NCBI RefSeq assembly: GCF_006516955.1
Contig: NZ_VHLG01000002.1
Location: 558,001 to 622,000 of the forward strand
Length of the DNA: 64,000 nt
Reading direction: 5' to 3'
From: Martelella alba
GTDB taxonomy: Bacteria > Pseudomonadota > Alphaproteobacteria > Rhizobiales > Rhizobiaceae
In this document: positions 6,597 through 47,000 of the stretch, piece by piece
Position numbering within the stretch: position 1 is the stretch's first letter
How the letters are laid out: each line of letters opens with the position of its first letter
Made by a program: the position numbers and the translations under genes
Notes under the pieces: generated by a model
Database searches by the model: none
The model's input: the letters and a program-made list of their open reading frames with translations, nothing else
What the model was told of the DNA's origin: nothing

Positions 6597-9038
6597 TCAG
6601 CCGCGGATCACGCCACCGGTCGATTTTTCGACATTGGCGACGATCTTCTTCGTCAGCGCTTCGAAGTCCTCGTCAGCCAGGGTCCGCTCACTTGGCTGGA
6701 TCTTCACCTCGACCGCAACCGATTTCTTGCCCTCGCCCAGCGAAGCACCTTCGAAAATATCGAAGACCGTGACACTGGTGATCAATTTGCGATCGGCCGA
6801 TGACACAGCACGCTCGATGGCTGCGGCTTCAACGCTGTGATCGACGACAAAGGCGAAGTCGCGGGCAACAGCCTGGAAGGCAGACAGCATCAGCGCCGGC
6901 TTGGTCCGGGTCGCCTTCTTCTTCGGATCAGGCATCGCATCAATGAAGATCTCGAAGCCGCAGAGCTTGCCCGTCACATCCAGCGCTTCCAGCACATTCG
7001 GGTGAAACTCGCCGAAATGGCCAAGCACGATCTTCGGCCCCATCTTGATGGTGGCAGAACGGCCCGGATGATACCAGTCCGGCCCGCCGGCAACGATCTG
7101 CACATTGCCCATCGGCAGGCCGCAGGCCTCCAGCACAGCCAGTGCATCGGCCTTTGCGTCAAACACGCCGACGGCGCGGCCGGCGCCCGTTTCACCGTTC
7201 GACCACATCCGGCCCGCACCGGCAAGGCTTGCGGTGCCGCGACGGATACCGCCAGCCACGCGACGCTGGCCTTCCGGCGTATCGTTCTCATAGGTGCCGG
7301 AAACTTCAAACAATGCCACGTCGCCATAGCCCTGATCGGCATTGCGCTGGGCAGCCATCAACAGGCCCGGCAGCAGCGAGGGGCGCATATCCGACATATC
7401 GGCAGCAATCGGATTGGCAAGCTTGAGCGACGGATCGCCACCGCCGAAAAGCTTCGCCTGTTCTTGCGAAATGAAGGACCAGGTAACGGCTTCCAGCATC
7501 GAACGGGCGGCAAGCTCGCGCCGCGCCAGCCGCGAGCGGATCTGCAGCACCGTCAGGATCTTCTCATTCACCGCGCCTGCATGCGGCAGCGGTTCCGGGC
7601 GGATCTCATCCACGCCATGAATGCGCATCACCTCTTCCACCAGATCGGCCTTGCCATCGACATCCGGCCGCCAGGAGGGCACCGAGACCGACACCGTCTC
7701 GCCATCCCCTGCAACGCCGAAGCCGAGATGGGTGAGGATCGCGCGCGCTTCTGCCGAGGGAACGTCAAGGCCGGTCAGGCGCTTCACTTCCGAGAACGGG
7801 AAGGAGATGATCTTTGCCTCGTACCCCTTGTAGCCAACCACGGTTTTTTCGCTCGCCGTGCCGCCGCACAGTTCCAGCACCAGTTCGGTGGTGCGCTCCA
7901 GCCCCGGAACCATATATTCGGGGTCAACACCGCGCTCGAAACGATAGCGCGCATCGGTGATGATGCCGAGATCGCGGCCCGAACGGGCGATGTTCATCGC
8001 GTCCCACAATGCCGATTCAATCAGCACATCGGTCGTGTTCTCATCGCAGCCGGAATGCTCGCCACCCATGATGCCGCCGATCGATTCAACGCCATTGTCA
8101 TCGGCAATCACGACATTGTTTTCGGTGAGCTTGTATTCACGCTCGTCGAGCGCCAGGATCGTCTCCCCGGCTTTTGCGCGGCGCACGGTCAGCGAACCCT
8201 TGACCTTGGCAGCGTCGAAGACATGCATCGGCCGGCCCTGATCAAAGGTCATGTAATTGGTGATGTCGACCAGCGCATTGATCGGCCGAAGGCCGATGGC
8301 GATCAGGCGCTGTTGCATCCATTTCGGGCTCGGGCCATTCTTGACGCCGCTGACGAGGCGCAGCGCAAAACCGGGGCAGAGATAGGCGTCGTCTTCGGCA
8401 AAATCGAGCGTCAGCGACACCGGCGTCTTGCCGTCCGTGGCAAAGGAAGGAGCCTTCGGCGCCTTGAGCGTGCCGAGACCGGAGGCTGCCAGATCCCGGG
8501 CGATACCGTAAATGCTGGTGCAATCGGGACGGTTCGGCGTCAGATTGATCTCGATGACCGGATCGTCAAGCCCCGCATAGGCGGCAAAGGACGCGCCCAC
8601 CGGCGCATCCTCGGGCAGATCGATGATGCCGTTATGGTCATCCGACATGTCCAGCTCTTTTTCCGAGCACATCATGCCCTGGCTCTCGATACCGCGGATC
8701 TTGCCGACCGAAAGTGTGACATCGATACCCGGCACATAGGTCCCCGGCAGCGCCAGCGCGCCGACAAGGCCGGTCCGCGCATTGGGCGCGCCGCAGACGA
8801 TCTGCAGCGGCTTGCCGCCATTGACGGACGGCCCGGCATCAACGGTCAGCACCCGCAGCCGGTCGGCATCGGGATGCGGCCTGGCGTCGATGACCATGGC
8901 GATGGTAAAGGGCTTATAGGCCGCCTTGTCGTCAACATCTTCGACCTCAAGCCCGATCGTCGTCAGCCTTTCGCAGATGTCTTCAAGCGTGGCATCGGTA
9001 TCCAGATGATCCTTCAGCCAGGAGAGTGTGAATTTCAT
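6597..9038 (-). CDS. pheT: Phenylalanyl-tRNA synthetase beta subunit
   Basis: 813 residues, the usual bacterial length. It is the beta subunit of the alpha2-beta2 enzyme that charges tRNA-Phe. The N-terminus [16 protein letters not shown] is diagnostic, and an EMAP-like tRNA-binding domain with [11 protein letters not shown] lies near residue 53. B3/B4 editing regions follow, and the anticodon-binding ferredoxin-like domain with [17 protein letters not shown] is at the end. It follows pheS by 12 bases in one operon, and a terminator lies behind it. Confidence 0.97.
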
Positions 9039-32677: not shown

Positions 32678-33964
32678 TTATCGCGCCGTCGGATTTTTGC
32701 CCGGATCAAGGCTTTCCGGCCGGCCATCAAGCGCCAGTGTCGCAATCTTCGGCGGGATCGACGAAATCACCTTGCCACGTTTCACAACGAACAGCCGCGC
32801 CGGTTTCAGCCGCAATGCCTCCAGCACGTCTTCAGCCTGCAGCACCACCAGATCGGCAGGGTTGCCGACCTTCAGACCATAGGTCTCAAGCCCCAGGGCC
32901 TTGGCCGAATTCACCGTGACCGCCTCATAGATCTTCTGCTTGTCCTCAACGCCGGACATCTGCGCCACATGTACCGCCATATGGGCGACCTCAAGCATGT
33001 CGCCGGACCCCATCGAATACCACGGGTCCATCACGCAGTCATGGCCGAAGGCGACATTGATACCGGCCGCCATCAGTTCGCGCACCCGTGTCAGCCCGCG
33101 CCGCTTGGGAAACGTATCGTGGCGGCCCTGCAGCATGATGTTGATCAGCGGATTGGGAATGGCGTTGATCCCGGCTTCCGCCATCAGCGGGATCAGCTTG
33201 GAGACGTAATAATTGTCCATCGAATGCATCGACGTCAGATGCGATCCGGCAACCCGGCCCTGCAACCCGAAACGGATCGTCTCGGCCGCCAGCGTTTCGA
33301 TATGCCGCGACATCGGATCATCCGTTTCATCGCAATGCATGTCGACCGGCAGGCCGCGTTCGGCCGCAATCCGGCAGAGCGCCTCGACCGAGCGGGCGCC
33401 ATCGGCCATGGTCCGCTCGAAATGCGGAATGCCGCCGACCACGTCAACACCCATATCAAGCGCCCGTTCCAGCGATTTCACCCCGTCCTTGGCTCGGTAA
33501 TAGCCATCCTGCGGGAAGGCGACCAATTGCAGGTCGATATAGGGTTTGACCTTTTCCTTCACCTCCAGCATCGCCTCGGCGGTGACAAGACGCGGATCGG
33601 ACGTGTCGACATGGCTGCGGATGAACAACAGCCCCTGCGACACGGCAAGATCGCAATAGGCCAGTGCCCGTTCGATCAGCGCTTCTTTTGTCAGCATCGG
33701 CCGGAGCTCGCCCCACAGCGCAATACCTTCCAAAAGCGTGCCGGAGACATTCATGCGCGGCAGGCCGAGCGATAGCGTCGCATCCATGTGGAAATGCGGA
33801 TCAACGAAGGGCGGGCTCACCATCCGGCCGCTCGCATCGATCACATCACGCGCTTCCGCCGTAATCCCCGGCTCCATCGCGCCGATAAGACCATCGGCAA
33901 TGGCAATGTCGACGCCCTTCCGGCCATCCGGCAGGTTGGCATTTTTGATGATGAGGTCAAACAT
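32678..33964 (-). CDS. Cytosine deaminase-like amidohydrolase
   Basis: 428-residue metal-dependent deaminase of the CodA group. Metal ligands lie in VDPHFHMDATL (HxH), HCDETDD and GSHLTSMHSMD; FGHDCVMDPWYSMG matches the late CodA block. It hydrolyses cytosine or a similar ring (isoguanine, methylcytosine, other aminated heterocycle). The ATG at 33964 has AAGGAG 9 bases upstream; the same frame continues far upstream only as a shadow of the permease gene. It is encoded with a BMP-type nucleoside/nucleobase importer, which fits uptake followed by deamination. Confidence 0.85.
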   Translation of the reverse strand: MFDLIIKNANLPDGRKGVDIAIADGLIGAMEPGITAEARDVIDASGRMVSPPFVDPHFHMDATLSLGLPRMNVSGTLLEGIALWGELRPMLTKEALIERALAYCDLAVSQGLLFIRSHVDTSDPRLVTAEAMLEVKEKVKPYIDLQLVAFPQDGYYRAKDGVKSLERALDMGVDVVGGIPHFERTMADGARSVEALCRIAAERGLPVDMHCDETDDPMSRHIETLAAETIRFGLQGRVAGSHLTSMHSMDNYYVSKLIPLMAEAGINAIPNPLINIMLQGRHDTFPKRRGLTRVRELMAAGINVAFGHDCVMDPWYSMGSGDMLEVAHMAVHVAQMSGVEDKQKIYEAVTVNSAKALGLETYGLKVGNPADLVVLQAEDVLEALRLKPARLFVVKRGKVISSIPPKIATLALDGRPESLDPGKNPTAR

Positions 33965-33984
33965 GGCGGAACTCCTTGGCAAAA

Positions 33985-34929
33985 TCAGCGTTCGCCGCGC
34001 CGGTAGGGCTGCATCAGCGCCTGCGGCACGCGGGCGCGTCGCGCCATGACGGCAAGGGCGGCGATTGACAGGATATAGGGGATCATCAGGAACAGCTGAT
34101 AGGGCACAACGCCGCTGAGCACGGTTTGCAGCCTGAGCTGGAAACCATCGAAAAAGGCAAACAGCAGCGCCCCGAACAGCGCCCGTTCCGGCTTCCACGA
34201 GGCAAAGACGACAAGCGCAATACAGATCCAGCCACGCCCCTGCACCATGGTCGGGAAAAAGGAATTGAAGGCCGAGGTGGTCAAAAAGGCGCCGCCGACC
34301 GCCATCAATGCGCTGCCTGCGGTAATGGCGGCATAGCGCACCAGCATCGGGTTCAGCCCCTGGGCTTCGGCCGCATGCGGATTTTCGCCTGTCATGCGGA
34401 TCGCAAGGCCTGCCGGCGTGCGCGCCAGAAACCAGGCCAGCACCAGCGCCAGCACAATCGCGAGATAGGTGGGTGCCGTCTGGGTGAAGAAGGCCGGACC
34501 GATGAAGGGCAGATCGGAAAGCCCCGGAATATTGATCGGCTGAAACGGCTCGATTGTCGGCGGCGTGCCGGAAACCGGCACCAGAAGGCGGAACAGATAA
34601 TAGGAAAAGCTCGAGGCAAACAGCGTGACGCCAAGGCCGGACACATGCTGCGACAGGCCAAGCGTGACGGTAAGCGCGGCATGCAAAAGACCGAAGACAG
34701 CACCCGCCAGCGCCGCGATCAAAAGCCCGGTCCAAAGATCCGCCCCATTATAGACCGCCAGCCAGCCGATCATGGCGCCAAAGGTCATGATGCCCTCAAT
34801 GCCAAGATTGAGCACACCCGAACGTTCCGACAGCAACGCCCCGAGCGTGCCGAGGATCAGCGGTGTCGCGATGCGCAGAACGGCCGCCCAGAGCCCGGCG
34901 GAAGCGAGAATATCGACAAGCGCGTTCAT
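33985..34929 (-). CDS. ABC importer permease 2, nucleoside/BMP type
   Basis: 314-residue membrane permease of the BPD_transp_2 group used by BmpA-type importers. ATPLILGTLGALLSERSGVLNLGIEG at the N-terminus, of which SERSGVLNLGIEG is the hallmark, and about eight hydrophobic segments are seen. It overlaps the other permease by 4 bases. Confidence 0.92.
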   Translation of the reverse strand: MNALVDILASAGLWAAVLRIATPLILGTLGALLSERSGVLNLGIEGIMTFGAMIGWLAVYNGADLWTGLLIAALAGAVFGLLHAALTVTLGLSQHVSGLGVTLFASSFSYYLFRLLVPVSGTPPTIEPFQPINIPGLSDLPFIGPAFFTQTAPTYLAIVLALVLAWFLARTPAGLAIRMTGENPHAAEAQGLNPMLVRYAAITAGSALMAVGGAFLTTSAFNSFFPTMVQGRGWICIALVVFASWKPERALFGALLFAFFDGFQLRLQTVLSGVVPYQLFLMIPYILSIAALAVMARRARVPQALMQPYRRGER

Positions 34930-35975
34930 CGGCGGATCCTGTATTGGGCAAAGAAGACGGCGACCAGCATCGACAGAAGCGACAGCGCCACGGTGACGTC
35001 GGCAATATAAGTTGGAATGCCGAGCGCGCGGCTCATGCCATCCGCGCCAACAAACATGGTGGCGGTGAACAGCGCGGCCAGCACAACCCCCAGCGGATTG
35101 AGGTTGGCGAGCATGGCAACGACGATGCCGGAATAGCCGAAGCCCGGCGACAGGTCCGTCGTCACATAGCCCTTGACGCCCAGCACCTCGACGGCACCGG
35201 CAAGCCCAGCAAGCCCGCCGGAAATCATCGCCACGACCACCAGCGTGCGCGCCAGCGGCACACCGGCAAAGACCGCCCCTTTCGGATTCAGCCCCGCGGC
35301 CCGCGAGCGCAGGCCGAACACAGTGCGCGACTGGACGAAATGCACGATGATCGCCAGCACCACCGCAATCACCAGACCGAAATGCAATCTGGAGCGTGCC
35401 AGAAGCTTGGGCAGGCGGGCGATCTTGTCGACCGCTTCCGATTGCGGCCAGCCAAAGGCCAGCGGGTCTTTCAGCACGCCGTCAATCAGCATCGAAACAA
35501 ACAGGATGGCGACGAAATTCAACAGCAGCGTCGTCACCACCTCATCGACGGAAAAGCGCAGTCTGAGCCAGAGCGGGACCAACAACAGCACCATGCCGGC
35601 AATGGCCCCCGAAATCAGCAGGATCGGAATCTGTACCAGGCCGGGCAATCCCGCCGTCAGATGCGCGCCGACGGCGGCAACGGCGATGGCGCCAAGATAG
35701 AACTGCCCCTCCGCACCGATATTCCACAGCCGCGCGCGAAAGGCGACGGCTGCGGCAAGCCCGGTCAGGATCAGCGGTGTGGCACGCGTCAGCGTTTCGG
35801 AAATCGACAGCCTTGAGCCGAAAGCGCCGACCAGAATTTTCCAGTAGGCTTCGAAGACCGGCGCACCGGCTGCGGCGATCAGAACACCGGAAATGGCAAG
35901 GGCCACGACAACAGCGATCAGCGGCGTCGCAATGGTCAGCATGAGCGAACGGTGTTCGCGCCGTTCAAACCGCAT
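34926..35975 (-). CDS. ABC importer permease 1, nucleoside/BMP type
   Basis: 349 residues and about nine membrane segments. LTRATPLILTGLAAAVAFRA and LWNIGAEGQFYLGA are family signatures. The ATG at 35975 has GAGGAG 8 bases upstream and overlaps the ATPase end. It forms the channel with the second permease. Confidence 0.92.
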   Translation of the reverse strand: MRFERREHRSLMLTIATPLIAVVVALAISGVLIAAAGAPVFEAYWKILVGAFGSRLSISETLTRATPLILTGLAAAVAFRARLWNIGAEGQFYLGAIAVAAVGAHLTAGLPGLVQIPILLISGAIAGMVLLLVPLWLRLRFSVDEVVTTLLLNFVAILFVSMLIDGVLKDPLAFGWPQSEAVDKIARLPKLLARSRLHFGLVIAVVLAIIVHFVQSRTVFGLRSRAAGLNPKGAVFAGVPLARTLVVVAMISGGLAGLAGAVEVLGVKGYVTTDLSPGFGYSGIVVAMLANLNPLGVVLAALFTATMFVGADGMSRALGIPTYIADVTVALSLLSMLVAVFFAQYRIRR

Positions 35976-37479
35976 GGTTCGTCTCCTCAAAGGCACCGGC
36001 CATCATCAGGCCGAGCCTGGTCTTGTCGGCGTCTTCTGCCATGACGGGCGACGATAGCCGGCCACCGACAATCGCCTGAATGCGATCGGCAAGCCCCATC
36101 ACTTCATCCAGATCTTCCGAGATCAGCAGCACGGCGGTGCCCGCCTTCTTTGCGGCGAGAATGCGCTCGTGAACGGCGGCGACAGCCCCTTCATCCAGCC
36201 CGCGCGCCGGCTGCGCGGCCAGCAGGATCTTCGGATTTTCGATCAGATTGCGGCCGAGAATAAGCTTTTGCATATTGCCGCCCGACAATAGCCGGGTGCG
36301 GCTCGTCGGTGTGCCGCCACGCACATCAAAACCGTCAATGATCTGGCGGGCGAAAGCGATGCCGGCCTTGCGGTCAACAAAACCGTGGCTCTGATAATCC
36401 TCGATCCGCTCCAGAACCGCATTCTCCCAGATCGCCATTTCGCCGATCGCGCCTTCGCCATTGCGATCTTCCGGAACGCGGCCAATGCCGAGCCGGATGG
36501 CATCGCCGACGGTGAGATCACCGACGGCTTCACCAAACAGCATCAGATCGCCGTCCGTGCGTTTCGCCGTTCCACTCAAAAGCCGCGCCAGATGCGCCTG
36601 ACCATTGCCGGAAACACCTATAATACCGAGCACTTCACCGGCATGAAGACGGAAGCTGACCCGTTTCAGCCGGTCGACACCAGCCTCCCGCAGTGTGATC
36701 GCCGCCGCTTCCAGCACCACCGGTCCGGGCGTTGACGCCTCACGCAGCGGACGCTTGACCGCATGGCCGACCATCAGTTCGGCAAGTTCGGCCTTCGAGG
36801 TATCGCCGACGGCACGCTCTGCGACATGCCGGCCGCCGCGCAGGACCACGATCCGGTCGGCCGTCGCCATGACCTCATCGAGCTTGTGGGAGATGAAGAT
36901 CAGCGACAGGCCCTTTGCCGCCATATCCTTCAGCGTCGAAAACAGTTTCTCCGCTTCCGGCTGGGTCAGCACCGCTGTCGGTTCATCCAGCACCAGAATT
37001 TCAGCATCGTTGTAAAGCGCCTTGAGGATCTCGACACGCTGCTGCTCGCCGACCGAGAGATCACCCAGCCTGGCATCGGGATCAACGGCAAGACCGAAAC
37101 GGGCGGAAATCTCGGCGAGCTTCTGTCGCCCTGCCCTCACATTGGAAGACAGCCGCCACAGGCTTTCCGTGCCGGTCATGACATTTTCCAGCACGGTGAG
37201 ATTGGGGGCGAGCGAGAAATGCTGATGCACCATGCCGATACCGGCGGCGATGGCAGCACGCGGCGAGCCGGGCGGCAATTCGCGGCCCTTGACCGTTACC
37301 GTGCCTTCATCCTGGACATAATGGCCGAAGAGAATGCTCATCAGCGTCGTCTTGCCGGCACCGTTCTCACCCAGAAGCGCTACGATCTCGCCCTTGGCAA
37401 GCGAAAGCGAGATCGCATCATTGGCGAGGTTATCGCCGAAGCGTTTGCTGACATTGCTGATCTGAAGAACCGGCGTCAT
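35965..37479 (-). CDS. ABC importer ATPase, two nucleotide-binding domains (nucleoside/BMP type)
   Basis: 504 residues with two ATP-binding domains. Domain 1 is complete: GENGAGKTTL, LSVGEQQRVEILKAL and LVLDEPTAVLT. Domain 2 has GVSGNGQAHL in place of Walker A, without the Lys, as is usual in this subfamily, and LLSGGNMQKLILGRN as signature; its Walker B area reads LLAAQPARGLD. Domain 2 is therefore expected to bind but hardly hydrolyse ATP. Its start overlaps the amidase end by 4 bases. Confidence 0.92.
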   Translation of the reverse strand: MTPVLQISNVSKRFGDNLANDAISLSLAKGEIVALLGENGAGKTTLMSILFGHYVQDEGTVTVKGRELPPGSPRAAIAAGIGMVHQHFSLAPNLTVLENVMTGTESLWRLSSNVRAGRQKLAEISARFGLAVDPDARLGDLSVGEQQRVEILKALYNDAEILVLDEPTAVLTQPEAEKLFSTLKDMAAKGLSLIFISHKLDEVMATADRIVVLRGGRHVAERAVGDTSKAELAELMVGHAVKRPLREASTPGPVVLEAAAITLREAGVDRLKRVSFRLHAGEVLGIIGVSGNGQAHLARLLSGTAKRTDGDLMLFGEAVGDLTVGDAIRLGIGRVPEDRNGEGAIGEMAIWENAVLERIEDYQSHGFVDRKAGIAFARQIIDGFDVRGGTPTSRTRLLSGGNMQKLILGRNLIENPKILLAAQPARGLDEGAVAAVHERILAAKKAGTAVLLISEDLDEVMGLADRIQAIVGGRLSSPVMAEDADKTRLGLMMAGAFEETNHAV

Positions 37480-38873
37480 CGTCCAAATCCTGCTATCGCG
37501 AAGGGGTGGTGCCAACGGTCCTCATTCTCAAGCGTCTGCGCAAGTCCGAGAAGCCGCATTTCCGCGCCCGAAGGTGCCATCAATTGCAAGGGAAGCGGCA
37601 GGCCGTCATGATCAGCACCGACGGGCAGCGTCAGCGCGGCAAAGCCGGACATATTGGCAAGGGTCGCCAGCGGCGCGAAGGCCGCCATACGGGCAAAATG
37701 GGCTGCCGTATCGCCATGATCGGCCGGAAAGGCGCCGATGGGCCGTGGCGGGCCGGAAAGCATCGGCGACGCCAGAACATCAATGCCGTCAAACAGCGCC
37801 CAGCAATCCCGTGCGACAAAGGCGAGCCGATTGGTGATCTGCCAGACATCCGTGCCGGACATGGCAAGCCCGCGGGCGACAACCGCCTGTGTCAACGGCT
37901 CCAGTTTCGTGCAATCGAGGCCGAAGCGACGGGCATTTGTCGCAAGATTGATCGCGGCAATATCGCCGAACAGCGCGGCGCACTCTTCCGCCAGCGCCGA
38001 GACCCTGCCCCATTCCAGCGCAACAAGGCGATGGCCTTTGCGTTCAAGACTTTTCATCGCATCCAGCACGGCTGCGGCGCGTTCAGGTGTCGTTGGCGTC
38101 CTGTCGCCGGTCTCCGCCAGAACACCGATGGAAAACGTGCCTTCGGCTTTGCCGGGCCGCACATCCGGGAAAGGACCACGCGCATTGCCGCTGAGCGTCT
38201 CAAAGGCAAGAGCCGCATCGCGCACCGAGCGGCAGACGGCAAGCTCCGAGGCAATGCCGCCGAGATAATTGCCATAGGCCGGACCGGCCGGCATGGCGCC
38301 GCGACCGGGCTTCAGCCCGACCAGACCGCAGGCAGCGGCCGGAACGCGGATCGATCCGCCCGCATCGGTCGCATGGGCGATGGCGACAATGCCCGCGGCA
38401 ACGGCTGCAGCCGAACCACCGGAGGAGCCGCCGGGCGAAAGCCGGGGATCGAGCGGATTGCGGGCGCAGGGTCCGATCAGCGGCTCAGCGGCCAGCGACA
38501 GGCCAAATTCCGGCGAGGTGGCAAGGCCAAACATGCAAAAGCCCGCCGTGCGGAACCGGGCGGCGAGATCACTGTCGGCATCGGGATTGGGGGCCATGGC
38601 CTTTGATCCGGCGCGGAGCGGAAAGCCCTTGAAAGGGCCGCCGAGATCCTTGGCCACCAACGGCACGCCGCCAAAGGGCATGCGGCGCTTCTCATCCGCC
38701 GGAAAACTGTCGAACTGCGCCGCCGCGTCCAGCCCGGCAGCAGCATCAACTAGGCAGAGCGCACCAAGCGTCTCATGAGATTTCGCCGCGGCAAGTGACG
38801 TTTCCATCACCTGCCGCGCCGTCATTTCGCCTTTGCCGATGGCAGCGGCGAGCGCGGTCGCATCGGCCGTCAT
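37476..38873 (-). CDS. Amidase signature-family enzyme
   Basis: 465-residue hydrolase with the Ser-Ser-Lys triad: Lys in PLVAKDLGG, the Gly/Ser-rich block SPGGSSGGSAAAVAAG, and the nucleophile region DAGGSIRVPAAACGLVG. It cleaves a carboxamide; the substrate is unknown. It lies 8 bases behind the BMP binding-protein gene and overlaps the ATPase gene, so it is a fixed part of this transport operon and probably acts on the imported compound or its breakdown product. Confidence 0.9.
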   Translation of the reverse strand: MTADATALAAAIGKGEMTARQVMETSLAAAKSHETLGALCLVDAAAGLDAAAQFDSFPADEKRRMPFGGVPLVAKDLGGPFKGFPLRAGSKAMAPNPDADSDLAARFRTAGFCMFGLATSPEFGLSLAAEPLIGPCARNPLDPRLSPGGSSGGSAAAVAAGIVAIAHATDAGGSIRVPAAACGLVGLKPGRGAMPAGPAYGNYLGGIASELAVCRSVRDAALAFETLSGNARGPFPDVRPGKAEGTFSIGVLAETGDRTPTTPERAAAVLDAMKSLERKGHRLVALEWGRVSALAEECAALFGDIAAINLATNARRFGLDCTKLEPLTQAVVARGLAMSGTDVWQITNRLAFVARDCWALFDGIDVLASPMLSGPPRPIGAFPADHGDTAAHFARMAAFAPLATLANMSGFAALTLPVGADHDGLPLPLQLMAPSGAEMRLLGLAQTLENEDRWHHPFAIAGFGR

Positions 38874-38881
38874 GACGTTCC

Positions 38882-39868
38882 TTACTTCGGTTCGTCCATG
38901 TTGCGCGGCACTTCAAACGTGCCGTCGATGATTTCCTGGCGCTTGGCCAGCATGGCTTCTTCGGCTTCCTTCGGCGCCACACCCTCGACGAAAGCGATAT
39001 CGCTGCCGCCTTCCTTGAGCATGCCGAAAGCGGTGTAATCCTGACCGACGGCATTGCCGGCGGAAACATCGGCAAGCGCTGCATTCAGGATCGGGCGGAA
39101 GCCCCACAGCGCGTTGGCGAAGACCGTGTCGGGATAGCGCGGCGTATAGTCGATCAGCGAACCGACAGCCTTGATGCCACGTTCCTTGGCGGCATCAGCC
39201 GTGCCGATACGTTCGCCGAACAGGATATCCGCACCGGCATCGATCTGGGCGAGACCGGCTTCGCGGGCCTTGGGCGGATCGAAGAAGGTGCCGATAAAGG
39301 TGACGGAATGGGTCGCATCCGGATTGACCGCTTTCACGCCTTCGGCAAAGGCGTTGATCAGCATATTGACCTCCGGGATCGGCATGGCGCCGACCGAACC
39401 GACCTTGTTGGTCTTGGTCATCTTGCCCGCCAGCATGCCGGCGAGATAGGCGCCGTCATGGTTCCAGGTGCCGAAGACGCCGAAATTATCGCCTTCCGGG
39501 CCGCCCGACGAACCAAGCACGAAAGCGGTATCGGGATAGTCAGCTGCTACTTCGCGGGCTTCCGATTCCACCGCATAGGCCTCGCCGATGATCAGATCCA
39601 TGCCCTGTTCGGCATATTCGCGCATGGCGCGGGGATAATCGGTCCCCGAAACGCTTTCGGAAAACTGATAGTCGATCACGCCTTCGGCGGCGGCATCCAG
39701 CAGCGCCTGATGGATAACCGAGTTCCAGGCATTTTCGACCGGCGAAGCGTGAATGGCGGCAACTTTCAGCTTGTCCGCCGCCATCAGCTTCGGACCGGCG
39801 GCAACAGTTGCCATCACGGCGCTCGAGATCAGCAGCGAGCGACGTGTCAGCAGGATGGATTTCGACAT
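38882..39868 (-). CDS. BMP-family ABC importer binding protein
   Basis: 328-residue periplasmic binding protein of the BmpA/PnrA class, whose characterised members bind nucleosides or nucleobases. A Tat-like signal (TRRSLLISSAVMATVAAG) is present at residues 8-25. MDLIIGEAYAVESEA and FGVFGTWNHDGAYLAGMLAG are conserved. First gene of the operon that runs down to the deaminase and ligase genes. Confidence 0.92.
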   Translation of the reverse strand: MSKSILLTRRSLLISSAVMATVAAGPKLMAADKLKVAAIHASPVENAWNSVIHQALLDAAAEGVIDYQFSESVSGTDYPRAMREYAEQGMDLIIGEAYAVESEAREVAADYPDTAFVLGSSGGPEGDNFGVFGTWNHDGAYLAGMLAGKMTKTNKVGSVGAMPIPEVNMLINAFAEGVKAVNPDATHSVTFIGTFFDPPKAREAGLAQIDAGADILFGERIGTADAAKERGIKAVGSLIDYTPRYPDTVFANALWGFRPILNAALADVSAGNAVGQDYTAFGMLKEGGSDIAFVEGVAPKEAEEAMLAKRQEIIDGTFEVPRNMDEPK

Positions 39869-41420: not shown

Positions 41421-42116
41421 TTAGGCGGAATTGAGCCGTTTGAACACATGAATCATTAAAGCGGCGGCAAAAAGTGGCGTCGCCAGATTGACGATCGGGA
41501 TCGCAACGAAGCAGGCAATCACCAGCCCGGCGAAGAAAACCCGCCAGGCATGTTTGCGCCGGAAGGCCCTTGCTGCCTCCACGCCCAGAAAGCGCATGGC
41601 GGCAAATTCGAAAAATTCCCGGCCAAGCAGGTAACCATTGACGACGAAGAAGGCGACGAGATTGACCCCCGGCACCAGCAACAGGACGAGCGCGATAAGG
41701 TTGCCGAGAATGACGATGCCGAGAAATTTCAGCGACGCGGCAAGCGCCTGAAACACCGGCATGGCGTGTCCCGGCGGGTCGTCGGGATAGTTGATCTTCT
41801 CGATATGCTCGGCCGCATCATCGAGAAAGATACCGGCGACAAAGGCGGAGACCGGCGACATCAGCATGGCGAGCGTCAGCGCCAGCCCGACACCGGCAAA
41901 AAACAGCAGCACGAAGGAGATCCATCCCGCCCAGTCCGGCATGGTTGGAAAGAGATGCGCCAGAAACGGGAAGGCCAGCCACATGAACAGCGCGCGGACG
42001 GCAAACCAGAGCGCGATCAGGCAGATCAGCGACAGGCCGAGCACCTTCCACAAAATGCCGCGCAGTTTCGGGTCAATCAGATCGGCACCGGCCCGGCGCG
42101 CGGCTTCTATCAGCAT
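41421..42116 (-). CDS. EI24-domain (CysZ-like) membrane protein
   Basis: 231 residues, mostly hydrophobic, with four or more membrane segments. LLVPGVNLVAFFVVNGYLLGREFFEFAAMR resembles the conserved core of EI24/CysZ proteins, in which NGYLLGREFFE is the hallmark. CysZ relatives take up sulfate; that role is possible but not shown by context. The ATG at 42116 has GGAG 10 bases upstream. Confidence 0.82.
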   Translation of the reverse strand: MLIEAARRAGADLIDPKLRGILWKVLGLSLICLIALWFAVRALFMWLAFPFLAHLFPTMPDWAGWISFVLLFFAGVGLALTLAMLMSPVSAFVAGIFLDDAAEHIEKINYPDDPPGHAMPVFQALAASLKFLGIVILGNLIALVLLLVPGVNLVAFFVVNGYLLGREFFEFAAMRFLGVEAARAFRRKHAWRVFFAGLVIACFVAIPIVNLATPLFAAALMIHVFKRLNSA

Positions 42117-42211
42117 GTCTGGCAATCTCCTTGATCAGGGCCAGAACCTGATTTGGGCAGTTGACGGGCGGCGCGCAAGCCCTCCGCGCAAACGAAAGGC
42201 CGCAGGAAACC

Positions 42212-43144
42212 TCAGGCCGCCAGTGTCGTACCGTAGGTGATACCCTTTTCCTTCAGCCAGCGGCGATAGGCGATCGACGTCGCATCGGCGCGTGTCGGGA
42301 TTTCCGCGCGCGGCTCCATCGGCAGCAGCACCGGACGCTGGTTTTCCAGAATGATGCGATCCTGCAGGAAAATCTCCTGCTGAAACTGGATCATCGCCGC
42401 GTCGCTGGCCTGATCATCGATCATGTAGAGGCCGGGATGGGCGCGGCAGAGATCCGGCGCCAGCGGCTGCACGAAAAGCGCAATCACATCGAAACGATTG
42501 GCGGCGCCGGGACAGGTCTTGTAGAGCAGCGTGTTGAACGGCGCCATGACACGATAGCTATAGTCGACATCGACAGCGCCTTCCGCCGAAAGCGCGGCAC
42601 GCGGCTGCTTGAAGGTGCAGTCCGTTGCCCAGACCTCATCGACATCGCGGCGGATCTCGACCTTGTAGCTCTTGACCTCGGTATGCGGCTCGGCACCGAG
42701 AATATCGGTATGGACAAACGGAAAATGAGCCAGATCGAGAAAATTCTCGACAATCCTGAGCCCCGAGGCGCGCACGGTGATCGCCCCGCAGGTGATCACC
42801 CGGCGGTCAGGCTCGGCAATTTCCGGCAGATCGAAAAGATCACGGGCCGGTTCGCCCGGCGTGGTCCAGACAAAGCCATAGCGGCGGATCACCGGCAGAA
42901 CCGAACCGCCTTCAGCCCGGCTGACGCCGATGACATCGCCGCGCCGTGTCAGGGTGAGCGGCACACCCAGCAAAACGGTCCGCGTCTCACCTTCGGCAAG
43001 ATCGCTCTCGGCCGAGACCACATACCATTGATCCAGCGCTGCCTTTTCCACCATCTGTTCGCCCCGTCTTTCGTTTATCCGGCCAATCCTGGCCAGATAA
43101 TCTTGGGAAGTTTTTACGCGCAAGTCCAGTGGCTTGACATTCAT
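42212..43144 (-). CDS. Rieske-type oxygenase catalytic protein lacking the Rieske cluster domain
   Basis: 310 residues from the ATG at 43144 (an ATG at 43054 is an alternative). The mononuclear iron site is present: NFLDLAHFPFVH with Asp137, His140 and His145. The late block FLQDRIILENQRPVLLP is typical of the oxygenase alpha subunit. The N-terminal part keeps the outer strands of a Rieske domain (LDQWYVVSAESDL, then VIRRYGFVWTTPGEP), but the whole CxH...CxxH segment between them is missing. It therefore needs electrons from a separate Rieske protein. A candidate is encoded by the divergent operon, 43472-44140. NdmC in caffeine degradation is a known Rieske-less example. Substrate unknown. 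Confidence 0.85.
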   Translation of the reverse strand: MNVKPLDLRVKTSQDYLARIGRINERRGEQMVEKAALDQWYVVSAESDLAEGETRTVLLGVPLTLTRRGDVIGVSRAEGGSVLPVIRRYGFVWTTPGEPARDLFDLPEIAEPDRRVITCGAITVRASGLRIVENFLDLAHFPFVHTDILGAEPHTEVKSYKVEIRRDVDEVWATDCTFKQPRAALSAEGAVDVDYSYRVMAPFNTLLYKTCPGAANRFDVIALFVQPLAPDLCRAHPGLYMIDDQASDAAMIQFQQEIFLQDRIILENQRPVLLPMEPRAEIPTRADATSIAYRRWLKEKGITYGTTLAA

Positions 43145-43188
43145 CAGCCAGCGCCTTCCGATAGCGCCAATCACAAGAGGCCGCGAAC

Positions 43189-43434
43189 TTGACCGACAAT
43201 GCCACGAAAACAACCTTCCGCTTCTCCGGCAGGCTCAGCCCGCAAAGCTTTCGCGCGCTTGCCGAAAACCGCGCCGCCCGGCTGGCGCTTCAGATCGATA
43301 TTCTGACGCTTGATGAAAGGGCGGCCGAAATTCGGGTACATGGCCCGGAAGCGCTCATCGGCGCTTTCGAAATGGCCTTGTCACTCGGCCCCTATGATTG
43401 CATGATTCTCGACATCGCCACATCTCCGGCCTGA
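43189..43434 (+). CDS. Acylphosphatase-like small protein
   Basis: 81 residues from a TTG start with AAGAGG 8 bases upstream. The sequence follows the acylphosphatase pattern: FRFSGRLSPQSFR at the phosphate loop with Arg22, LQIDILTLDERAAEI, GPEALIGAFEMALSLGP. The catalytic Asn position (N-x2-DG in active enzymes) appears as T-x2-ER, so hydrolysis is doubtful. It precedes the Rieske gene by 37 bases in the same operon. A structural or regulatory job in the oxygenase complex is a guess. Confidence 0.6.
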   Translation: MTDNATKTTFRFSGRLSPQSFRALAENRAARLALQIDILTLDERAAEIRVHGPEALIGAFEMALSLGPYDCMILDIATSPA

Positions 43435-43471
43435 TCCGGCCGAAACTGACCCCGAAAGGCATCAATTCATC

Positions 43472-44140
43472 ATGGCAGCGACCTGGTATCCGGTAGCGCT
43501 CGCAGAAACGCTTGAAAACGGCAGCTCCGCCGGCACCCGCATCCGGGGCAGGGAAATCGCCATCTGGCGTGACAATGAAGGCACGGCCCATGCCTGGGAG
43601 GACCGCTGTCCCCATCGCGGTGTGCGCCTGTCGCTCGGCTTCGTGCGCGGCAATCACATTGCCTGCCTCTATCATGGCTGGGAATATGCCAGCGACGGCC
43701 AGTGCCGCTATATTCCCGCCCATCCCGAACTTGAGGTGCCGAAAACCATCCGCGTGCCGCGTTATAGCGTCGCAGACCATGCCGGCATCATCTGGACGAC
43801 CGGCCATGAAGATGGCGATGTGGCGACACTGCCGGATGTTTGCGGGCCGGTAAGTCCGGTGCGCTCGCTCTATGTTGATGCATCACCTGAAAAGATCCTG
43901 GCCTGCCTGAAAAACGCCGATGCAACGGCAAGCGGCGCACCAGATGCAACAGTCTGGCGCGCGACCATCGGCAAAACGTCGCTTTTCATCGCGGTTCAGC
44001 CTTTCGACGATAAAATCACGGCGCTGCATATAATCATCGCCGCCGCAGCCGATGTGAAATTGCGCCTTGATGCCGCGCGCTTTGCCGAAAGCTTACGCCT
44101 TGCCGCCGAAACGGCCCCCGTTGCGGAGGCTGAACAATGA
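43472..44140 (+). CDS. Stand-alone Rieske [2Fe-2S] protein
   Basis: 222 residues. The Rieske ligands are all present: Cys46 and His48 in DRCPHRGVRL, Cys65 and His68 in ACLYHGWEY. The domain runs from residue 4 to about 108 and resembles the N-terminal half of ring-hydroxylating oxygenases (RYIPAHPELEVPKTIRV, HAGIIWTTG). The oxygenase iron site is absent; instead there is a 110-residue C-terminal part without recognised motifs. It overlaps the GST-like gene by 4 bases. It is inferred to supply electrons to the Rieske-less oxygenase encoded across the divergent promoter. Confidence 0.88.
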   Translation: MAATWYPVALAETLENGSSAGTRIRGREIAIWRDNEGTAHAWEDRCPHRGVRLSLGFVRGNHIACLYHGWEYASDGQCRYIPAHPELEVPKTIRVPRYSVADHAGIIWTTGHEDGDVATLPDVCGPVSPVRSLYVDASPEKILACLKNADATASGAPDATVWRATIGKTSLFIAVQPFDDKITALHIIIAAAADVKLRLDAARFAESLRLAAETAPVAEAEQ

Positions 44141-44775
44141 GCAAACTTGTTCTCTATGACCATGCGCTGGATGAAAACTGCTATCGCCTGCGCCTTTTCA
44201 TGGCGCTCGCCGGAATCCCTTACGAGACAGTGGCGATCGATTCCGTGCCCGGCAACGCCCATCAATCCGCAGAAATGCGCGCCCTGTCGCCCGCCGCAAT
44301 CCTGCCGGTACTGAGTGATGACGGCAAGGCCTATCCCGGCGTGATCGGCCCTCTCATCCATCTTGCCAGACTTGCCGCCAAGACACCGGATGGCAGCCCG
44401 TGGCGGCCCGAAGCCGAAGCCCCTGAAATCGCCGGATGGCTGGAATTTTCCGTCACCACGCTGAAGGCTGCAGTGGATGCCCGTTTCGAAGCCTTGTTCT
44501 CACCGACCGGCGGCCCGTCGGATGATCTGCGCCAGGCGGCACGCGAAGCACTGCGTATCATGGATGACCACATGACACGCCGTCAGATCGAAGGCTCTGA
44601 ATGGTTTGTCGGCATGACGCCAAGCCTTGCCGATGTCGCACTGTTCCCGAGCTTCGGCCTGTCGCGCGATTTCGGCGTCGATCACGATGAATTTCCGGCC
44701 TTGAGACGCTGGTATCGCCGCTTCCGCGCCCTGCCCGGCTTCATCACCATGTCCGGCATTCCCGACTATCACTGA
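44137..44775 (+). CDS. Glutathione S-transferase-like protein of the Rieske operon
   Basis: 212 residues with the GST fold: an N-terminal thioredoxin-like domain (LVLYDHALDENCYRLRLFMAL, then SPAAILPVL) and a C-terminal helical domain with SLADVALFPSF. Translation is coupled to the Rieske gene by an ATGA overlap. In the caffeine N7-demethylase NdmCDE, the GST-like NdmE is a structural partner of the Rieske-less oxygenase and the Rieske reductase. A similar scaffold role is inferred here. A true transferase is the alternative. Confidence 0.85.
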   Translation: MSKLVLYDHALDENCYRLRLFMALAGIPYETVAIDSVPGNAHQSAEMRALSPAAILPVLSDDGKAYPGVIGPLIHLARLAAKTPDGSPWRPEAEAPEIAGWLEFSVTTLKAAVDARFEALFSPTGGPSDDLRQAAREALRIMDDHMTRRQIEGSEWFVGMTPSLADVALFPSFGLSRDFGVDHDEFPALRRWYRRFRALPGFITMSGIPDYH

Positions 44776-44831: not shown

Positions 44832-47000
44832 TCAGGCGGCGTCCTTTGCCTTGCGCTCCAGCCGGCGGGCATGCAGCACCGGTTCGGTATAGCCATTGGG
44901 CTGTTCTCGGCCCTTCAGCACCAAGTCGAGCGCGGCCTGAAACGCAACCGAGCTGTCAAAATGCCCGGCCATCGGGCGGTAGAGCGGATCACCGTCATTC
45001 TGCCGGTCGACGACGGCTGCCATCTTCTTCATCGTCTGAACGATCTCATCTTCCGTGACGACGCCGTGATAGAGCCAGTTGGCCATATGCTGGGAGGAGA
45101 TGCGCAGCGTCGCGCGGTCTTCCATCAGGCCGATATCGTTGATATCCGGCACCTTGGAGCAGCCGACGCCCTGATCGATCCAGCGCACGACATAGCCGAG
45201 AATGCCCTGCGCATTATTGTCGAGTTCCGCCTGAATATCGTCTTTCGACCAGTTGGGCCGCACCGCAACCGGAACCGAGAGAATATCCTTCAGCGAGGCG
45301 CGCTGACGGCTGACCAGGCTCTTCTGCACCTTCTCGACATCGACCTCGTGATAATGGGTCGCATGCAGCGTTGCCGCCGTCGGAGAGGGCACCCAGGCAG
45401 TATTGGCGCCGGCCCTGGGATGGCCGATCTTGGTCTCCAGCATTGCGGCCATCAGATCCGGCATGGCCCACATGCCCTTGCCGATCTGGGCGTGACCGGC
45501 CAGACCGCATTCCAGCCCGATATCGACATTCCAGTTTTCGTAGGCGGCAATCCAGGCTGCTGCCTTCATGTCGCCCTTGCGGATCATCGGCCCCGCTTCC
45601 ATCGAGGTATGGATCTCGTCACCGGTGCGATCAAGGAAGCCGGTATTGATGAAGACAACGCGATCCTTCGCCGCCCGGATACATTCCTTGAGGTTGACCG
45701 TGGTACGGCGTTCCTCATCCATGATGCCCATCTTCATGGTGTTTTCCGCCATGCCGACAAGCTTTTCGGCACGGGTGAACAGATCGGTGGCAAAAGCCAC
45801 TTCTTCCGGCCCGTGCATCTTCGGCTTGACCACATACATCGAGCCGTTGAGCGAGTTCAGATGTTTGCCGTCAGGGCCAATATCGTAAAGCGCGATCAGC
45901 GCCGTCACCAGCGCATCCATGATGCCTTCCGGTACTTCACGCCCGTCGTGATCGAGGATCGCCGGATTGGTCATCAGGTGGCCGACATTGCGGATCAGCA
46001 TCAAGGAGCGGCGGCGCAGCAGGAAGGGCTTGCCATCACCGTCCTTGTATTCGGTGTCAGGATGGAGGCGCCGGGTGAAGCTCTTTCCGCCCTTGGACAC
46101 CTCTTCCGACAGATCGCCCTTCATCAGGCCAAGCCAGTTGGAATAGGCCAGAACCTTGTCCTCGGCATCTACGGCGGCGACAGAATCCTCGCAGTCCATG
46201 ATCGTGGTGATTGCCGATTCGAGCGCGACGTCATTGATATGCGCCGGATCCTGGCGACCGATCATGCCATCGGCATCAATCGCAATCTCGATATGAAGGT
46301 GGTTATGGCTGAGAAGAATATGGCCAGGCGCTGCCGCCTCGCCAAGATAGCCGGCAAATTGCGAGGGATCGGCAAGACCGGTGATCCCCTTGTCGGTCTG
46401 AACCATCAGGGCACCGCCCTCAACCGTCAACCCTTTGACCACGCTCCAGCTTTCACCTGCCAGCGGCGCTGACTTGTCAAGAAAATTGCGGGCCCAGGCT
46501 ATGACCTTCTCGCCGCGTACCGGGTTGTAGCCCTTGCCCTTCTCCGCACCGCCATTTTCGGCAATAGCATCCGTGCCGTAAAGCGCGTCATAAAGCGAAC
46601 CCCAGCGCGCATTGGCGGCGTTCAGCGCATAGCGCGCATTCATGATCGGCACGACCAGCTGCGGACCGGCAATGGTGGTGATCTCCGGATCAACATTGGC
46701 GGTGGAAACGGCAAAATCCGGCCCTTCCGGCAGGATATAACCGATCTCGCGCAGATAGGCCTCATAGGCGCCCATATCAGCCGGCGCACCATGTTCCTTG
46801 TACCAGGCGTCAAGCTTTTCCTGCATCGCATCGCGCGTCTTCAAAAGCGCGCGGTTCTTCGGCGCAAGTTCATGCACGATCTCGGAAAATCCGGCGAAAT
46901 AGGCTTCGGGATCAACGTTGGTTCCCGGCAGAACGCGATCATTCAGGAAATCGTAAAGCGCCTTGTCGAAGGCAAGGCCGTATTTTTCGATGCGGGCCAT
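44832..47000 (-). CDS. glcB: Malate synthase G
   Basis: 722-residue monomeric enzyme that condenses glyoxylate with acetyl-CoA to malate. The length and the [40 protein letters not shown] and [21 protein letters not shown] segments are typical of isoform G. The catalytic Asp lies in [13 protein letters not shown]. It completes the glyoxylate bypass or glycolate use. No isocitrate lyase lies in the window. Confidence 0.96.

Follow-up and report, generated by a model that had tools for sequence, protein, structure and literature searches.

The stretch of DNA analysed here (hereafter the window) comprises 64,000 nucleotides of Martelella alba, positions 558,001 to 622,000 of contig NZ_VHLG01000002.1, from a draft assembly that totals 5.0 Mb over 55 contigs and has a completeness of 100. 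Four of its genes, between positions 42212 and 44775, probably make up a Rieske oxygenase that is divided over several proteins. CAT (42212-43054, minus strand) encodes an oxygenase subunit without a Rieske domain, 280 amino acids long when counted from the ATG at 43054. Its frame is open further upstream, as far as a TTG at 43213; the matches of most homologues begin near the ATG. On the plus strand follow SMALL (43189-43434, TTG start, 81 amino acids), which encodes a protein of acylphosphatase fold, RIE (43472-44140), which encodes a stand-alone Rieske protein, and a gene for a GST-like protein (44137-44775), the start of which overlaps the end of RIE by 4 bases. An initial annotation of the window had listed CAT, RIE and the GST-like gene, and all of these open reading frames exist, as does the 4-base overlap. 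What it called a short divergent promoter is in part the gene SMALL, which was overlooked. Between the chosen starts of CAT and SMALL 134 bp are left (43055-43188), presumably with the promoters of both arms. A promoter scan gave 3 promoter-like sites where 1.0 were expected, with no sigma-70-like site in this gap, and predicted terminators were no more frequent than in shuffled sequences.

As a 333-amino-acid open reading frame, CAT matches VanA_C (PF19112, 8.6e-24), the C-terminal domain of vanillate-type oxygenases, and the Pfam search gave no match to a Rieske domain. In a profile alignment against ten complete Rieske oxygenases, CAT 11-294 pairs with positions 1-334 of the complete enzymes, interrupted by a gap of 48 positions (63-110) with aligned sequence on both sides. 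This gap takes in three of the four cluster ligands, and the remaining one, the first Cys, is paired with a Gly. This bears out the earlier claims that the CxH...CxxH part is missing and that the outer strands of the Rieske domain are still recognisable. The mononuclear iron site is conserved, D107, H110, H115 and D232 being present in 100 of 100 sequences, the window copy among them. The initial annotation had named Asp137, His140 and His145 as the site, which is correct for the site as a whole and not for Asp137 as a ligand. Going by naphthalene dioxygenase, this residue (D107 in the present numbering) is the inter-subunit bridging Asp, which connects the two metal sites of adjoining subunits, and the carboxylate iron ligand is likely D232. 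That the bridging Asp is kept fits electron delivery from a Rieske protein in trans. CAT has kept its iron-site residues, and the part of its Rieske domain that binds the cluster is gone.

RIE matches the Rieske domain PF00355 with residues 4-88 (1.3e-24) and its cluster ligands are intact, as had been claimed. Ligand counts over the family are circular here, since its 85 sequences had been selected by motif; 7 of 92 matches were dropped because the motif was absent, or as complete oxygenases or over-long open reading frames. The AlphaFold2 single-chain prediction (mean pLDDT 93.7) contains a second domain at about residues 115-222, with a strand, a helix, three strands and a long helix. The closest structural matches are complete Rieske oxygenases, with a TM score of 0.75 by RIE length, a value that would be out of reach without the second domain because the Rieske part makes up only about half of the 222 residues. 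By profile, RIE 1-216 aligns to positions 13-297 of the complete enzymes (probability 99.9), with a gap in RIE where the complete enzymes have both iron histidines. The last third of this alignment is low in confidence, with no confident columns, and for this reason the predicted fold is the stronger evidence for the nature of the second domain. The C-terminal part of about 110 residues, noted earlier as unexplained, does exist, and going by the model it is best read as a shrunken catalytic (helix-grip) domain. RIE thus keeps the cluster motif, and the segment that bears the two iron histidines in complete enzymes is gone. CAT and RIE together look like reciprocally decayed oxygenase subunits, each supplying what its partner lost. 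A profile comparison of the C-terminal part of RIE alone with CAT was dropped (probability 18% over 25 columns).

A known system of this kind is NdmCDE, the 7-methylxanthine N7-demethylase of Pseudomonas putida CBB5. All three of its parts are homologous to CAT, RIE and the GST-like protein, the shrunken domain included. CAT is 43% identical to NdmC; RIE 2-217 aligns by profile to NdmD 6-244 (probability 100), where an equivalent second domain follows the Rieske domain; and the GST-like protein, which is matched by both GST_N and GST_C and so has the two domains of a GST, is 33% identical to NdmE over 207 residues. The initial annotation had spoken of a similar logic, and the parallel is thus one of real homology. 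It was also considered whether the middle region of NdmD corresponds to the C-terminal part of RIE plus SMALL; this was ruled out, SMALL being unmatched in NdmD. The reference sequences came from Pseudomonas putida MT178 and Paraburkholderia caffeinilytica, in whose clusters the Ndm names were assigned from gene order and domains following PMC4408171 and PMC10380055; the sequence records use other names. According to these papers, NdmCDE is the first reported oxygenase whose Rieske domain is on a separate protein, fused there to a reductase, with NdmD, which contains the RIE homologue, working with NdmC (PMC4408171), and it is a complex of 3+3+3 subunits in which NdmE is held to be structural, NdmC alone being insoluble (PMC10380055). 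The structure of the complex is given as unsolved in a 2026 note (PMC13237722).

The window set shares with NdmCDE the Rieske-less oxygenase with a mononuclear iron site and a partner-borne Rieske domain homologous to the N-terminal part of NdmD. It differs in the reductase, which NdmD bears in fused form, whereas RIE ends at 44140 without one, as noted before; no NdmD-like fusion was matched in the whole genome. Further differences are that the fetched NdmCDE-type loci are without SMALL and that the substrate is known there. NdmCDE is a 3+3+3 complex of about 360 kDa, whereas the window set is known from genes and single-chain predictions. NdmCDE-like clusters of Sinorhizobium (pSymA) and other rhizobia share CAT, the GST-like protein and a BMP transporter with the sets of the window type, and differ in that CAT is present as two genes in tandem, the Rieske domain is fused to the reductase and SMALL is missing. 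The alpha3 or alpha3alpha'3 enzymes NdmA/NdmB and SxtT/GxtA are a more distant comparison: CAT and RIE align to complementary parts of them, whereas in these the Rieske and catalytic domains sit on one chain, so the set does not belong to the alpha3 type. HpxD, the annotated Rieske subunit of the molybdenum-independent xanthine hydroxylase, is named as a Rieske enzyme of purine breakdown and gave a weak match (27-29%); we take it to be a complete oxygenase subunit, and it was compared with the set by match list only.

SMALL is predicted with a pLDDT of 94.6, has the beta-alpha-beta-beta-alpha-beta fold of acylphosphatases, and reaches a TM score of about 0.85 against solved acylphosphatases in Foldseek. 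The Rhizobium johnstonii copy is annotated as 'acylphosphatase'. It shares with these enzymes the fold and not the active site: in the profile family of 81 sequences (3 of 84 matches were dropped as over-long open reading frames) the residue at the catalytic Arg position varies and the catalytic Asn is likewise not kept, the presumed catalytic positions being read off an alignment. Invariant in all 81 are G14, A29, L32, G52, L56, L66, G67 and P68, and dN/dS against the nearest relative is 0.23. SMALL is more likely a structural or docking subunit. Neither a stand-alone Rieske form nor an acylphosphatase-like partner is mentioned in the accessible parts of PMC4408171, PMC12445004, PMC8055839, PMC13237722 and PMC10380055, and no work tying an acylphosphatase to a Rieske/GST demethylase was found among the matches listed in a search that had most subscription journals outside its range. 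The stand-alone-Rieske form with a fourth subunit is thus undescribed in the open literature searched.

The same set is found again in many soil bacteria. For comparison, 80 named loci were used, the best of 573 relatives among at least 586 pattern-matched stretches; they are biased to the window's own type, and CAT is present in all of them by construction. Profile matches near CAT were found for RIE in 78, for the GST-like protein in 78, for SMALL in 75 and for an NdmD-type reductase in 1, this last profile being built from three fused proteins and detecting NdmD-type reductases only. In the two loci without RIE (L093 and L129) a RIE homologue and SMALL lie side by side elsewhere in the genome (GST was not searched there). 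The initial annotation would have given up its reading if the Rieske-less gene always occurred without the other two, and this is not the pattern, with RIE and GST nearby in 78 of the 80. The same linkage bears on the idea that CAT and RIE are mere neighbours, RIE serving other oxygenases and CAT using other donors. The genome does hold other Rieske proteins (five PF00355 matches, RIE included), which speaks for this idea; against it stand, besides the linkage, the leftover catalytic domain in RIE, which would be superfluous for an ordinary ferredoxin, and the RIE homologue within NdmD, which works with NdmC according to PMC4408171. We regard this idea as highly improbable.

A less biased sample is given by 199 genomes of the window's family. 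CAT was found in 44 of these, SMALL in 28 and the fused Rieske-reductase in 13, and all 28 SMALL genomes and all 13 fusion genomes are CAT genomes. Two of the 44 are weak matches, G049 and G030, the latter with a complete oxygenase (locus L049). SMALL occurs in 18 of the 109 genera sampled in the family. Only one genome (G160) has both SMALL and the fusion, at two separate loci, and since the two sets share no other genome, SMALL is associated with the unfused Rieske protein. Neither SMALL nor the fusion was matched in G011 and G085 at the thresholds used, G085 having a weaker SMALL match. SMALL also persists where a free reductase sits in the cluster: in locus L163 the order is RIE-CAT-GST-reductase-transporter-SMALL, all in one direction, and L164 has the same order followed by an S-(hydroxymethyl)glutathione dehydrogenase-like gene, although CAT of L164 was found as a 189-residue open reading frame only and its BMP gene is in two pieces. 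In L116 a reductase is nearby and SMALL was not found. A plasmid of Komagataeibacter nataicola from kombucha encodes two NdmA/B-like complete oxygenases, a free reductase, SMALL, RIE, CAT and the GST-like protein.

In a quick tree, the Rieske-less proteins form one group apart from the complete oxygenases (SH-aLRT 96). Within the CAT tree, NdmC and the CAT proteins of the fused type form one subgroup and most of the stand-alone types another, while the Komagataeibacter CAT and one Xanthobacteraceae CAT sit near the base without a clear place. The tree of RIE nests the fusion inside the stand-alone proteins, with bootstrap values of 96 and 98 for the enclosing branches and 93 for the nearest, which would make the unfused form the ancestral one; the alternative to this nesting was not rejected in an AU test (p 0.206). 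A tentative extension is that the set belongs to a widespread enzyme of four to five parts (CAT, RIE, SMALL, GST and a free reductase) for the uptake and demethylation of modified nucleobases, for example 7-methylguanine from RNA turnover, with NdmCDE as a derived offshoot that fused Rieske domain and reductase and lost SMALL. This is possible, though less likely than not. If it is true, SMALL would represent a new type of oxygenase subunit, one that positions the unfused Rieske half or guides the reductase.

As for electron supply, no NdmD-type reductase was found in the window, so the earlier statement that no reductase gene lies there holds for the type covered by the profile. In the whole genome there are five matches to the plant-type 2Fe-2S domain PF00111, none of them an NdmD-like fusion: PaaE (above cut-off), a GbcB-like reductase (below cut-off), a xanthine dehydrogenase subunit, a frame of 121 residues, presumably a ferredoxin, and a frame of 722 residues. 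A reductase borrowed from elsewhere in the genome is plausible. The lack of an NdmD-type reductase could also mean that an NdmCDE-like system has lost its reductase here and that the genes, no longer working, are decaying; the TTG start of SMALL would suit such decay. The closest comparison is with Martelella sp. HB161492 (locus L051), the CAT of which is 93% identical. Against these copies dN/dS is 0.11 for CAT, 0.23 for SMALL, 0.22 for RIE and 0.10 for GST, and all four genes are under purifying selection. Their dS of 0.38-0.53 is higher than that of several neighbours (0.16-0.17 for the aminotransferase, CysZ-like, BMP and ATPase genes, 0.30 for the amidase and 0.33 for malate synthase), which might be taken for decay as well; being two to three times the value for the BMP, aminotransferase and CysZ-like genes, it suggests a different history such as exchange. 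With dN/dS of 0.10-0.23 throughout, iron and cluster ligands intact and a layout without a nearby NdmD-type reductase common to 79 of the 80 named loci, decay is very unlikely.

The set is an accessory cassette that was gained in the window genome or lost in others, since its flanks adjoin without it in two genomes of the same genus. These flanks are the CysZ-like gene (41421-42125) and, on the other side, a gene at 44832-47000 that is probably malate synthase G. The flanking matches lie 189 bases apart in G081, with the four-gene set absent between them, and 1.1 kb apart in G161, with the set likewise absent. CAT is present in 6 of the 13 genomes searched within the genus, the window genome counted.

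The substrate is suggested by the surroundings of the set. Near it, in the 80 named loci, profile matches were found to an amidohydrolase in 56, to a BMP-type binding protein in 53 and to an adenine-deaminase-like protein in 45; a xanthine dehydrogenase was seen in 6. The nearest solved relatives of two representative amidohydrolases are 8-oxoguanine deaminase and guanine deaminase, and one representative adenine-deaminase-like protein matches adenine deaminase 2. In four other genomes of the genus, SMALL-RIE-CAT-GST-amidohydrolase-transporter lie in one direction, with a transporter of the BMP type. By analogy, the neighbourhoods of the relatives and the homology to NdmC point to N-dealkylation of a purine, with deamination before or after. 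The initial annotation had suggested N-methylated or aromatic compounds, of which N-alkyl purines fit these neighbourhoods better than aromatics in general. For the family, 7-methylguanine is a guess, made because its deamination would give 7-methylxanthine, the substrate of NdmCDE; no literature for or against 7-methylguanine catabolism by such a Rieske/deaminase route was found, with most subscription journals outside the search, and none relevant by title to a role in cytokinin degradation.

Taken together, it is fairly probable that the set is one split Rieske oxygenase, a sister form of NdmCDE, which most likely carries out O2-dependent N-dealkylation of a purine-like substrate. CAT and RIE would stand in place of alternating alpha subunits in a three-fold ring, the cluster of RIE would pass electrons to the iron of a neighbouring CAT, and GST and SMALL would hold the assembly together. 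Electrons would be fed by a reductase encoded elsewhere, in the window genome by a GbcB-like, PaaE or ferredoxin route, and the oxidative N-dealkylation would release an aldehyde. Several points weigh against this. No reported activity of any stand-alone-Rieske form was found in the literature examined, and an NdmD-type reductase, the one type searched for there, lies near the set in just 1 of the 80 named loci. SMALL was found neither near CAT nor genome-wide at E 0.001 in L116 and L123, both metagenome assemblies, and in L128, a strain; in G011 it is absent within 20 kb and genome-wide at 1e-5. SMALL is thus not always needed, or not always detectable. In the window itself deaminase-like, xanthine dehydrogenase and formaldehyde genes are all unmatched, the BMP transporter is two genes away from the set, and CAT sits on a long branch (0.84), so that a shift in substrate is possible.

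The purine assignment is weaker in the window than in the relatives, because only a transporter and an amidase lie nearby. The former has a BMP/PnrA-type ABC substrate-binding protein (38882-39868, minus strand; PF02608, 3.7e-34), a possible partner two genes from the set, with 3s99 and the atrazine-binding protein 6pi5 among its solved relatives. The amidase (37476-38873, minus strand; PF01425, 6.6e-66) and the ABC ATPase of the BMP system (35965-37515, minus strand; ABC_ATP_B6, 6.8e-124, below its cut-off) are also possible partners. Over the whole transporter region (32678-39868), the amidase lies between the binding-protein and ATPase genes. Elsewhere in the genome a xanthine dehydrogenase small subunit scores above the curated cut-off. 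The same split enzyme might here act on a substrate other than a purine, for example an amide or amine that is imported by the BMP transporter and cut by the amidase. Consistent with this are the amidase inside the BMP cluster, both in the window and in the Martelella HB161492 locus, the long branches of CAT and also of RIE, the lack of matches in the window to the purine gene families of the relatives' clusters, and 13 of the 80 named loci, four of which lie on short contigs, without any match to an amidohydrolase, an adenine-deaminase-like protein or a BMP protein. The broader clusters of the relatives point to purines, however, and the four sets of the same genus combine the BMP transporter with an amidohydrolase from the family of the pRL10 protein, which comes closest to 8-oxoguanine deaminase. 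A non-purine substrate is accordingly rather unlikely, and the purine-like substrate is preferred.

The split known from NdmCDE recurs widely in a form that is not fused and has one more conserved subunit. This suggests that one protein can become two half-dead copies by virtue of the electron path between the subunits of Rieske oxygenases. The set offers a modular version of a split oxygenase for structural work, and SMALL is predicted to be needed when rhizobial systems of this type express as insoluble or inactive protein.

A few other loci are worth describing. Four clusters of the fused type (L040, L041, L045 and L140) combine one Rieske-reductase and one GST with a tandem pair of Rieske-less oxygenases, an arrangement that suggests either two substrates or a mixed ring. 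On the Komagataeibacter nataicola plasmid pKNA08 (L138, 4905-11456) the NdmA/B-like oxygenases are accompanied by two split sets, and the Rieske protein of the first (6784-7317) has GVYHGW at the expected second Cys ligand; going by this motif, its cluster may be lost. A protein that presumably resembles adenosine/adenine deaminases is encoded near the set in 10 of the 80 named loci, for example in L109 (13604-14635). A pair of genes for a sulfopyruvate/phosphonopyruvate-decarboxylase-like TPP enzyme (L038, 8067-9172; also for example L113, L118, L125, L127 and L130) is found repeatedly in large clusters, in among the purine genes and often accompanied by a GMC oxidoreductase. Finally, in G030 (L049, 4071-11284) the open reading frame of a complete Rieske oxygenase overlaps one of 445 residues that matches the NdmD-type reductase profile, near a BMP transporter, and this pair is possibly the unsplit counterpart of the system.

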